From: Holdemania sp. Marseille-P2844
Lineage (GTDB): Bacteria; Bacillota_I; Bacilli_A; Erysipelotrichales; Erysipelotrichaceae
Length of the DNA: 64,000 bases
NCBI RefSeq assembly: GCF_900120005.1
Contig: NZ_LT635454.1
Span: forward strand, 340,759-404,758
Direction of reading: 5' to 3'
This document shows positions 36,152 through 43,305 of this stretch, piece by piece. The notes beneath the pieces are model-generated. The model did no database searches. It was given only the letters and a program-made list of their open reading frames with translations, and was not told where the DNA came from. Each line of letters starts with the position of its first letter. Position 1 is the first letter of the stretch. A program made the translations under genes and the position numbers.

Positions 36152-37141
36152 ATGCGTGCAGCACAGATCCGCAGAGAAGAAATGGGACTGCATTCCCTTG
36201 GCGAAAAGAAAGATTATTTTGAAGGCTGGTATTTCCGGCTGTGCGACCCGCGTTGTTCGCTGGCGGTGATCGTCGGTTTCAGCCCGCAGCATTCAGCCGC
36301 GCCGTTTTTTATTCAGACGACGGATACGTTGACGAATCAATCACAATGGGCGGAATTTGGCTGGCAGGACGCGGTAGTGCGGCAGTCGCCGTTTCATCTG
36401 ACGCTGGGAAGCAACGAATTTTCGCTGACGCGCGTGAAGCTCGATCTGCCAAAGCTGAAAGTCCGGCTTCGTTTAAGCGGCTTGACGCCGCTGCCGTTTT
36501 CCCGGTACGCCCCGACGATCATGGGACCGTTCGCGTATTTGAAAAATATGGAATGCGTGCATGGCGTGATCAGCCTGCATCACCGCATGGAAGGCGTTGT
36601 CATCGCCAACGGACGTTCGCTTCCCGTAACCGGCGTGGGTTATCTGGAAAAGGACCGCGGCACTTCGTTTCCCCAGCGCTATCTGTGGTTTCAGTCCAAC
36701 CAGTGCGGCGTACCGGATTCGTGCTTCTTCCTGTCGCTGGCCAGTATTCCGTTAGGACCGCTGACATTTAATGGTTGTCTGCTTGTCGTCAAACTGCGCG
36801 ATCAGCTGCATCGCTTTGCGACCTATACCGGCTGCCGCCTGGAATCGCTGCGCTGCCGTCAGTTTAAAGAGGGTTCCGGGTGGGCCAAACTGCGGTTTCA
36901 TCAGGGCGGCTGGCAGATCCGGATCCGTCTGGAATGCGGTCCGGCCTGTTCGCTGGCTTCGCCGCACAACGGGCGGATGCAGGGCCGGATTCAGGAAAGT
37001 CTCAGCGGCCGGGCGCATGTGACGCTGCTGCATCATGGCGTGAAGGTTCATGAAAGCCTGTGGTCGCAGGGCGGCATGGAGCTGCAATGGGAAAAAGAGG
37101 AAGATCAGAACGCGGAATACAGTAAAAAAGGGTTGTCCTGA
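36152..37141 (+). CDS. Tocopherol-cyclase-like protein, function unknown
   Basis: ATG 36152 is preceded by CAGGTGATTGG; GTG 36116, 36 bases upstream in frame and behind AAGG, is a possible alternative. The 329-residue protein carries the family mark KKDYFEGWYFRL near its start and repeated beta strands with conserved Trp/Arg and Gly, as in plant tocopherol cyclase-like (lipocalin-related) domains. Bacterial homologues are widespread in Firmicutes and have no established role; tocopherol is not made here. No signal peptide is seen. Confidence 0.75.
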   Translation: MRAAQIRREEMGLHSLGEKKDYFEGWYFRLCDPRCSLAVIVGFSPQHSAAPFFIQTTDTLTNQSQWAEFGWQDAVVRQSPFHLTLGSNEFSLTRVKLDLPKLKVRLRLSGLTPLPFSRYAPTIMGPFAYLKNMECVHGVISLHHRMEGVVIANGRSLPVTGVGYLEKDRGTSFPQRYLWFQSNQCGVPDSCFFLSLASIPLGPLTFNGCLLVVKLRDQLHRFATYTGCRLESLRCRQFKEGSGWAKLRFHQGGWQIRIRLECGPACSLASPHNGRMQGRIQESLSGRAHVTLLHHGVKVHESLWSQGGMELQWEKEEDQNAEYSKKGLS

Positions 37142-37166
37142 AACGGCAACCCTCAACATTTTTATT
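37130..37166 (+). terminator. Weak terminator overlapping the previous stop
   Basis: GGGTTG (37130-37135) pairs with CAACCC (37147-37152); a T-rich stretch follows after five bases. Confidence 0.5.
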
Positions 37167-37408
37167 ATAGCACGAAAAAAATTTGAATGAAAGGGCTTAC
37201 TTTTTTGAAAACTCTGTTTATAATAAAGTCGAAGATAAGGAATGAGATCTTCAAACAGAGGAAGCTGATCCCTCAGACAGCCGATCAGAACGGTTGAGTC
37301 CGTTAAGGAGAGAACCTAGTTTCTCAATGAATCCATTAAGGCTGATAAAGTAAGAGGAGCGAAGCTTTCAGAATAAACGGAACGTTTATTCTAAGGAGGT
37401 TAAAGTAA

Positions 37409-37441
37409 ATGGAACCTGGACAGAGAGGATACCGCCGCTAA
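37409..37441 (+). CDS. Ten-codon ORF with ideal ribosome site inside the RNA candidate
   Basis: ATG 37409 is eight bases after AAGGAGGT (37393-37400), which itself abuts the perfect hairpin. It encodes MEPGQRGYRR and stops. The spacing and strength of the ribosome site make translation plausible. A peptide this small could be regulatory, or translation could shape the RNA. No function is known to me. Confidence 0.45.
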   Translation: MEPGQRGYRR

Positions 37442-37696
37442 ACGCCGGCGTTGCGCGATGAATCGCAGATCCGTGTGATGCTTCTTACAACTTCCCATTT
37501 TGCTGAAAATTTACAAAACAGCCATCGAACAGATAAACAGCCATTTTGTGAGGATTAAGGGTAAACGCGAGGAAGAAATGAGAACGGTTTGGTTTCAGCA
37601 GTGGAATCGAATTGATGTCATAGAGAGAGTTGCGGAAATGTTGGAAAACAGCCGCTGCGGTTCATCGGTATAAATAGAATCAATAACATAGATGAA

Positions 37697-37726
37697 GAAC
37701 CTGCAAAAAATGCGGGTTCTTTTTTC
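37697..37726 (+). terminator. Terminator of the RNA candidate
   Basis: GAACCTGCA, a short A-rich loop, TGCGGGTTC and TTTTTT. Confidence 0.92.
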
Positions 37727-37924: not shown

Positions 37925-37953
37925 TTGAAAGCACTTGCGGAATATGCGATAAT
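37925..37953 (+). promoter_or_regulatory. Promoter of the hydrogenase operon
   Basis: TTGAAA (37925-37930), a 17-base spacer and GATAAT (37948-37953). Confidence 0.7.
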
Positions 37954-38028
37954 AAAAGTAGGTTTTCAGAATTGAAAATCAGCGCTATCTATGGTAATGT
38001 GAATTTGTTAGCAATGGAGGAGAAAACA

Positions 38029-39483
38029 ATGTCCATGTTCAATCACGAAGCACGTCAGTTCAAGTTCGACGTGCTCAAGGAAATTTCACAGCTGGCTTAT
38101 GAAGGAAAATTGACGGACGACAGCGCGGCCGCGATCAGCCGCAAACTGATCCCGGGGCGCAAGGCGGAATTCCGCTGCTGCGTGTATAAGGAAAGAGAAA
38201 TCCTGCGGCAGCGCACGCGCCTGGCGTGCGGGAAAATGGCGGATGAAGCTGCGGCATACAATCCGCGTCAGATCGTTCAGGTGATCGACGCGGCGTGCGA
38301 CGGCTGCACGATCCGCAAGATTCAGATCACCGACAACTGCCGCAAGTGCATGGCGAAAGCCTGTCTGGCTTCGTGTAAGTTCGATGCCATCAGCATGGGG
38401 CTGCACCGCGCCCAGATTGATTATACAAAATGCAAGGAGTGCGGCGCCTGCGCCCGCAGCTGTCCATACAACGCGATCGTCGTCACCGAGCGGCCGTGTT
38501 CCCAGCACTGCCCGGTCGACGCAATCCGCTGGGATGAAAATGGGATCGCTCAGATCGACGAAACCAAATGCATCAACTGCGGCGCCTGTCAGGCCGCCTG
38601 CCCGTTTGGCGCGATTGAGGATATGTCATGGATCGTGCCGGTCGTCAGCCTGTTGAAAATGGGAACGCCGATGTTTGCGATCGTCGCTCCGGCGATTCAG
38701 GGGCAGTTTGACAACGCCACCCTGCCGCAGATCAAGAAAAGCATTGAGCTGCTGGGGTTTGAAAAAGTCTACGAGGTCGCGCTGGGCGCGGATGCCGTCG
38801 CGTGGGAGGAACAGGCGGAGCTGGCGGAAAAGATGGAAGCCGGCGTGCCGATGACGACCTCCTGCTGTCCGGCTTTTGTCAACCTCGCAAAGATGCACTT
38901 CCCGCAGATTTACGAAAACAATATGTCGACCGTCGTTTCACCGATGATGGCGCTGGCCCGCAAGCTGAAAAAAGACCATCCGGATCACGGCGTGATCTTT
39001 ATCGGCCCATGTCTGGCGAAAAAGCAGGAAGCGATGGAATCCTTCACCGCCGTTGATTACGTGCTGACCTTTGAGGAAATCGCGGCGATGATGATCGCCA
39101 AACACATTGATCCTTCGGAAGTAGAGGCGAAAGAGGAAGACTATCCGTCGATCTTCGGCCGCAACTTCGCTCAGGGCGGCGGTGTTGGCAAAGCGGTCGC
39201 GCAGGCTGCAAAGGAAAAAGCGATGGCCGCGCCGGTGAGCGTGTACGCCGACGGCTGCATGGAATGCAAGAAGCAGCTGACGTTAATGAAGTTCGGCAAG
39301 TTTACCGGCAACATTCTGGAAGGCATGGCCTGTCCGGGCGGCTGCATCGCCGGGCCGGCGGTCATCGAGCCGCCGATGGTGGCAAAAGGCCGGATGGCGA
39401 AAGAAAATAACGGCCAACAGAAAACGATTGAGGAATCGCTGGAAAGCTTTGATTTTACCGGCGTGCCGATGCATCGAAAATAA
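38029..39483 (+). CDS. [FeFe] hydrogenase, monomeric group-B-like
   Basis: ATG 38029 has GGAGGAG about seven bases upstream. The 484-residue protein has an N-terminal domain with extra cysteines (CDGCTIRKIQITDNCRKC), two ferredoxin-type 4Fe-4S motifs (CKECGACARSC and CINCGACQAAC), and the H-cluster motifs TSCCPAF (277-283), GPCLAKKQE (from 326) and MACPGGCIAGPA with Cys435 and Cys439. It should take up or evolve H2 with ferredoxin. The motif variants (GPC for MPC, F after CCPA) fit the less studied group B. Maturation genes hydEFG are not in the window. It heads a four-gene operon. Confidence 0.88.
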   Translation: MSMFNHEARQFKFDVLKEISQLAYEGKLTDDSAAAISRKLIPGRKAEFRCCVYKEREILRQRTRLACGKMADEAAAYNPRQIVQVIDAACDGCTIRKIQITDNCRKCMAKACLASCKFDAISMGLHRAQIDYTKCKECGACARSCPYNAIVVTERPCSQHCPVDAIRWDENGIAQIDETKCINCGACQAACPFGAIEDMSWIVPVVSLLKMGTPMFAIVAPAIQGQFDNATLPQIKKSIELLGFEKVYEVALGADAVAWEEQAELAEKMEAGVPMTTSCCPAFVNLAKMHFPQIYENNMSTVVSPMMALARKLKKDHPDHGVIFIGPCLAKKQEAMESFTAVDYVLTFEEIAAMMIAKHIDPSEVEAKEEDYPSIFGRNFAQGGGVGKAVAQAAKEKAMAAPVSVYADGCMECKKQLTLMKFGKFTGNILEGMACPGGCIAGPAVIEPPMVAKGRMAKENNGQQKTIEESLESFDFTGVPMHRK

Positions 39484-42786: not shown

Positions 42787-43305
42787 ATTTGGTCAGAAGG
42801 CAGCCGGAACCAATCGTTTCTCCTAAGGAAGAACACCGCTGCGCAATCATGCAGGCTTCGGCCAGAGAAATTGTTCAAAAGTTTAGTGTGGCTAAACTGA
42901 TGATATCACTTTATTAAATTTATACTTGCGCTGACGAATTTTTTTGATATAATTTTTTCGTGATTGAAGTTAAGGAGGGATGGGAAAACAGACGATCACG
43001 CCCGTTGATTTTGAATGATGAGTACCACGTCATTGCCGGTTGAAAACGACCGGCCGCATGACCTGATGTTCCACGAAGAACAGGCCTCGGACAGCCGGGT
43101 CAAATGCCGAAATTGAAACAGGGTTACCCTTGTTGATGCCAAAGCGTAATGCTTTGAAAAAGTTCTGTGACACGCAATCACCAAGCGGCCAAAAGCCATC
43201 GTCTTGTCTTTCTATCCTGAAGCGCAGGGAGCGCACCGGAAGAAAATTGAAGAAACGAAAAGAACTGTTTTTGTTTTTCTATTTTGAAAGGGGAAGTATC
43301 ATTTT
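42787..43305 (+). other. Gap with a promoter but no convincing gene
   Basis: TTGCGC (42926-42931), a 16-base spacer and TATAAT (42948-42953) form a promoter, followed by AAGGAGGG (42972-42979) that abuts a 12-codon ORF at 42980. Nothing longer is in frame. On the minus strand two partial frames (43236-43030 and 43199-42996) would join by one frameshift near 43040 into about 80 residues, which could be a relic gene. No family is recognised. An RNA with an untranslated start is the other possibility. Confidence 0.35.

Follow-up and report, generated by a model that had tools for sequence, protein, structure and literature searches.

A conserved structured RNA gene of Holdemania with a micro-ORF start site behind a promoter common with hpf

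Positions 37231 to 37726 of the window, the 64,000-nucleotide stretch of the Holdemania sp. Marseille-P2844 genome that was analysed, encode a structured RNA as a gene in its own right, conserved in Holdemania. Computation supported the RNA gene, its conservation, a hairpin (hairpin 1) in front of a ten-codon open reading frame (ORF), a conserved translation start site, and a promoter common with the ribosome hibernation gene hpf. It is quite possible, though short of probable, that this RNA belongs to a previously undescribed group of small genes for structured RNAs which, behind the promoter common with hpf, would engage ribosomes when growth stops; its transcription and timing, the docking of ribosomes and the effect on them are what we infer.

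The RNA gene and its conservation in Holdemania

The features of the locus are listed in Table 1. Reading of the sequence and a script located every element named in the original prediction, that is, a promoter, a hairpin, a Shine-Dalgarno (SD) sequence of the AAGGAGG type, the ORF MEPGQRGYRR and a terminator. The absence of an ordinary gene, also part of that prediction, was in agreement with the ORF list, in which nothing plausible as a protein gene lay from the stop at 37141 to the hydrogenase start near 38029. A mechanical ORF on the minus strand reaches into this region at 37159, and the TTG at 37972 extends the start of the hydrogenase frame. Another candidate ORF, of 31 codons (MRTVWF...) and located in the 3' half, was rejected, as sister species have a frameshift or a stop in it.

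The predicted fold of 37226-37726 reached -141.8 kcal/mol (z = -4.05), and none of 100 shuffles was equally good. Transcription would start at about 37231. Generic scans flagged neither the promoter, whose -35 element does not resemble TTGACA, nor the final terminator, whose U tract lies partly within the stem, yet both are kept in all four species.

Table 1. Features of the RNA locus (positions in the window)
Feature	Position	Strand	Basis or remark
Divergent TATAAT (37169-37164), then at once a terminator-like hairpin	37125-37169	-	Reading; layout conserved at related sites
90-bp promoter module, CCCYAACA..TNATTATA..RACTGTT/GGCTTAC..N17..TATAAT	37149-37237	+	R3 match, alignment, hpf-free matrix
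-10 element TATAAT	37219-37224	+	Reading and script; conserved in four species
Structured RNA gene, ~495 nt	37231-37725	+	Fold z -4.05; conserved in four Holdemania genomes
5' hairpin GAAGAT/ATCTTC	37231-37252	+	Fold and Holdemania comparison
Hairpin 1, perfect ten pairs, AGAATAAACG-GAA-CGTTTATTCT	37370-37392	+	Directly 5' of the SD
Extended Shine-Dalgarno sequence AAGGAGGT	37393-37400	+	Reading and script
Ten-codon ORF MEPGQRGYRR-stop	37409-37441	+	Start and length conserved
Hairpin 2, CGCCG/CGGCG, overlapping the stop codon	37433-37450	+	By reading
Possible long-range helix, 37456-37468 with 37655-37667, around hairpin 37513-37549	37456-37667	+	Fold, alignment
3' block TGGAAAACAGCCGCTGCGGTTCATCGGTAT	37642-37671	+	Nearly invariant within the genus
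Intrinsic terminator, stem AAGAACCTGCA/TGCGGGTTCTT at 37695-37721, T run to 37725	37695-37725	+	

Each of the four Holdemania genomes has the locus in the same position, upstream of an [Fe]-hydrogenase operon (Fe_hyd_lg_C). Its identity was 89 to 92% in two of them, and it was strongly diverged in G001; a conserved 31-nt part gave exact matches in H. massiliensis AP2, H. filiformis DSM 12042 and an uncultured Holdemania. Five blocks stand out against the drift that has affected most of the RNA in G001, namely, the promoter (AATGAAAGGGCTTACTTTT plus TATAAT), GAAGATAAGGA at the 5' end, TCTAAGGAGGTTAAAGTRAATGGAACCTGGACAGARAGGA, the 3' block and the terminator. The ORF was ten codons long in all four genomes, ending in TAA, TGA, TAG and TGA, respectively. 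This constancy of length under three different stop codons, together with conservation at the same place, indicates that the locus is more than a chance arrangement.

Compensatory changes in relatives, which had been expected of a genuine structure, were observed among the Holdemania copies in the terminator and in hairpin 1, where four of the ten pairs have changed on both sides with pairing kept. The proposal of a large structured RNA was thus borne out by conservation, by these compensatory changes and by the presence of its own promoter and terminator. For its part, the long-range helix is tentative, because 4 of its 13 pairs are broken in G001.

The start site in other genera

The original prediction was right to single out the tiny ORF behind the hairpin as unusual: across genera, no part of the RNA is better conserved than the start site. 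Conservation between genera is poor in the large 5' and 3' parts. When 273 family genomes were searched by pattern, the start site turned up in three further genera (g66, g18 and g52); an order-wide repeat completed g66 (9 of 9) and added one g57 genome, and an RNA model gave a second genome of g57. In total, GGAGGUYAAAGURAAUGGAACCU or a close variant was present in 18 genomes from five genera of Erysipelotrichaceae, which have in common the promoter layout, the start site, an ORF of 10 to 18 codons (MEPG..., MEPT... or MTPT...) and a second hairpin located at the end of the ORF or close to it. Two 30-nt matches in another family lie inside coding sequence and were read as chance, and the phage and viral collections searched yielded no match.

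Hairpin 1 was found, with differing sequences, in 16 of the 18 relatives (mean z -2.0), and the stretch around the stop gave a mean z of -1.4; these sequences are related, so that the combined scores are not independent. Hairpin 2 has a counterpart of unrelated sequence in other genera and gave weak statistics in the Holdemania copies themselves. The start, the length and the stop position of the ORF are kept within genera. In g66 the ORF stays in frame although the hairpin loops differ by whole codons, and eight of the nine species stop (TAA or TAG) at the same place relative to the second hairpin.

Codon 3 was CCT in all 18 genomes, and codon 2 was GAA in 16 and ACA in the other two; synonymous changes were seen at neither position, while later codons vary. 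These data indicate that the constraint acts on the nucleotides of the initiation site rather than on the peptide. The AGGU of the SD is able to pair with the ACCU of codons 2 and 3 (in the window, AGGTT at 37397-37401 with AACCT at 37413-37417), and this was the only pairing that RNAalifold found in the cross-genus alignment, because the hairpin positions shift. At the g66 loci (e.g., L048), a small membrane protein gene lies 3' of the RNA, with a TATAAT about 7 to 12 nt before its ATG and no SD, and it is probably expressed from a leaderless mRNA.

The promoter module, hpf and related RNAs

Alignment of 23 upstream regions yielded the strict module CCCYAACA...TNATTATA...AAANAGACTGTT-N17-TATANTAWAGGTGTAAAGA. 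A sequence-only model of the module (R3), whose training set included the window site and the hpf sites of G009, G001 and G000, scored the window site at an E value of 5e-13 (in training) and its orthologue in G003, outside training, at 5.6e-13. In the RNA's own genome, R3 found exactly four strong sites (E values of 1e-16 to 3e-11, the next independent site being at 0.013), corresponding to the window RNA, two RNAs with the mini-ORFs MKKVLLEY-stop and MKQVLLEF-stop, and hpf (S30AE domains). The module was present in 152 of the 273 family genomes and in 30 of the 60 genera (E ≤ 1e-4). Outside the family, matches in a class-wide sample were weak and scattered (best, 3e-8). Two of them (L240 and L252) precede ordinary genes and were rejected; another, L249 in G573, a genome of another Bacilli family, is a weak match (E 1e-6) in front of hpf, and hints that control of hpf may be older than the RNAs.

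Since three hpf sites had been in the R3 training set, the hpf link was retested with a matrix rebuilt from 20 RNA sites and no hpf sites. This matrix recovered hpf in five genera, with scores of 18 to 25 bits in the four Holdemania genomes, 30 in G009, 56 in G152, 34 in G141 and 13 in G027, and in the 64-kb window the RNA's own site was the only one above 8 bits. In seven other genomes it gave no site in front of hpf, and it did not recover the out-of-family G573 site. An earlier model built from class-1 RNAs only (R2) had already matched the hpf promoters of G009 and G141. These results support a promoter common to the window RNA and hpf.

The module looks like a pair of promoters placed back to back, and transcription from the leftward one would run straight into the terminator-like hairpin. 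In the window and on the same side of the related sites, the conserved divergent TATAAT has GTTGRGGG and a terminator-like hairpin within a few bases behind it, as if each site gave an opposite-direction RNA of about 30 nt.

The RNA model also matched loci of a second kind, which all four Holdemania genomes contain and which have the same promoter and 5' end, an SD, the eight-codon ORF MKKVLLEY-stop and a hairpin, followed in the RNA's own genome by GAAAGUGAGUCUGGAGAGGACAGACCAAUGGGCA 3' of the hairpin. The own-genome loci L103 and L123 (C13:195 kb and C13:192 kb) lie about 3 kb apart, with the mini-ORFs MKKVLLEY-stop and MKQVLLEF-stop, and both carry the motif GAGAGGR...ACCAATGGRCA.

Among 67 fetched module sites, the first SD-led ORF was short in 47, hpf in 2 and a 51-codon ORF in 1, and was absent from 17. 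The window RNA, with an SD-led mini-ORF shortly 3' of its promoter, follows an arrangement that is common in the group, not universal. The form MK[KE][VI]L[LK]E. predominated among the short first ORFs. As for the 17 sites lacking an SD-led ORF, they include several RNAs with a start-like AGACCAAUGGACA about 30 nt past the transcription start and others with no evident ORF; some are cut off by contig ends. Tandem units of SD, mini-ORF and hairpin were observed at L092 (four ORFs, MKKVLLEY-stop or MKE[IV]LLEF-stop) and at L227 (three ORFs, M[RK]GPGI[HY]-stop). The G027 RNA appears to hold both AUGGAC near the 5' end and MEPTHS-stop near the terminator, and would thus tie the RNA classes together. 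Four loci (L214, L216, L217 and L225) have the same promoter and long RNAs without a mini-ORF, with common blocks such as GATGAAGTCTGCAGTCCGAGCAGAAAC, and form a separate RNA class.

Possible function and comparison with known RNAs

In many members of the group, one or more strong ribosome-entry sites and their very short ORFs appear to form the center of the RNA. When HPF is induced, the RNA would present such a site, and its extended SD and AUG would recruit a ribosome, which would be captured or cycled, either making the ten-residue peptide or idling on the site. The hairpins on either side would leave the start site accessible and, at the stop, either retain the ribosome or let it go. Ribosomes would in this way be kept in an mRNA-like complex, or diverted, while HPF inactivates the remainder.

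We favor this ribosome-engaging role because the start site is conserved as RNA and the rest of the peptide is not, with hairpins on both sides; because the only four strong module sites of the genome belong to three such RNAs and hpf; because the hpf-free matrix finds hpf in five genera, R2 having matched it in G009 and G141; and because related RNAs carry several tandem SD mini-ORF units. It is weakened by the same-promoter RNAs without an SD-led ORF, by the lack of the module before hpf in at least seven genomes, and by selection on the MKKVLLEY peptide itself (see below), which docking alone would not need.

More tentative is the wider idea of an RNA arm of ribosome hibernation, in which RNAs switched on with HPF would capture or park ribosomes, a role comparable to that of 6S RNA for RNA polymerase. 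6S RNA occupies RNA polymerase, a central machine, during growth arrest; the likeness is by analogy alone, the proposed target here being the ribosome, and there is no structural likeness. The promoter common with hpf provides a concrete, testable link to hibernation, and the module adds a set of RNA genes, with no Rfam family, in half of the sampled genera of Erysipelotrichaceae, which are common gut bacteria. In the window class, the conserved core is a translation start, not a fold. If docking is true, these RNAs would form a regulatory class with the ribosome as its target; should it be the peptides that matter, these would be a family of gene products of 8 to 15 residues under selection, also rare.

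The main rival to the ribosome-engaging role is a micropeptide gene or dual-function RNA, in which the peptide (MEPG..., MKKVLLEY...) would be the product, made on hpf induction, and the structure would control its translation. When first ORFs were chosen by promoter, SD and length only, the MKKVLLEY relatives showed 277 synonymous and 157 non-synonymous single-base codon differences (N/S of 0.57 versus an expected 3.25), which argues that micropeptides of this type are under selection. The explanation is thus well supported for these relatives. It is not so for the window RNA: the length and stop position of its ORF are kept in four species, which favors it, but the window class has only MEP or MTP in common, invariant as nucleotides, the other residues vary between genera, and the RNA has a long structured 3' part. 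Overall, we regard it as somewhat unlikely.

SR1 and RNAIII are dual-function bacterial RNAs. VcdRP of Vibrio cholerae is also a dual-function RNA (PMC8672173). As in these, a single RNA here would combine regulatory structure with a short ORF (theirs being translated), and the window ORF has a conserved start, frame and stop. Unlike theirs, the ORF of the window class is 10 to 18 codons long and variable, with a fixed start site; the promoter is common with hpf, and relatives have tandem mini-ORF units.

An RNA acting in trans, pairing with mRNAs via the 3' block or the start-site region and with the ORF secondary, is clearly unlikely. It would be consistent with the gene's own promoter and terminator and with the near invariance of the 3' block in Holdemania (the sole exception being a 21-base insertion in G001), whose would-be helix partner drifts; however, the 3' block was not found in other genera.

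That the RNA is a leader or attenuator acting in cis on the [Fe]-hydrogenase operon downstream is very improbable. In three genera (g1, g18 and g52) the hydrogenase follows the RNA, but the gene next to it in g66 is a different one, and the terminator and a promoter of the hydrogenase's own (TTGAAA-N17-GATAAT, 37925-37953, present in G001 as well) intervene; the RNA did not keep to a place in front of a single regulated gene within one transcript. The fthC motif is a uORF motif in front of one gene under its regulation (PMC11109978). Like it, the window RNA has its SD and AUG in the interval between two hairpins, the second of which contains the stop; unlike it, the RNA stops at its own terminator, and the neighboring gene changes between genera.

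Size, structure and its own promoter recall the known large classes (raiA, ROOL, GOLLD, OLE, 6S and tmRNA), but a diverged member of one of them is the most improbable explanation, since Rfam searches of the window locus and 25 related loci, at gathering and permissive thresholds, gave weak chance hits only, mostly terminator-like. The suggestion of a raiA or ROOL type was not supported, as neither the raiA motif RNA model (RF03072) nor the ROOL model matched; ROOL, GOLLD and OLE were absent among the matches of the locus and related loci, as were 6S RNA and tmRNA among those of the locus, in keeping with the alternative that the RNA may be new. A raiA search of four family genomes gave no match, with the controls also silent, and no description of these RNAs was found in the literature. 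To our knowledge, a conserved SD-AUG core is not a feature of any of those classes, and we are aware of no published RNA group that joins the promoter of a hibernation gene to a core consisting of a micro-ORF start site. It is this combination that appears to be new, a structured RNA of unproven function being of a known kind.

ModT, a raiA motif RNA, modulates the transition to stationary phase and in C. difficile measures about 215 to 260 nt, with a canonical SigA promoter (PMC11706538). The window RNA is likewise an independent structured RNA of Bacillota, but with no sequence or structure match to it, and the raiA/hpf tie is here via a common promoter, not adjacency. ROOL, GOLLD and OLE are ornate large RNAs (PMC12286853); the window RNA resembles them as a long structured RNA with function unassigned and no Rfam-independent clue to its role, and differs in having a translation start as its core and 5' and 3' parts poorly conserved between genera. 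Elsewhere in the window, downstream of the hydrogenase/SpoIIE-like operon, Rfam matched SpF59_sRNA (RF02440), a family described from Streptococcus, at 43059-43110 on the plus strand (40.3 bits versus a cut-off of 37.2), which may be a terminator-like chance hit.
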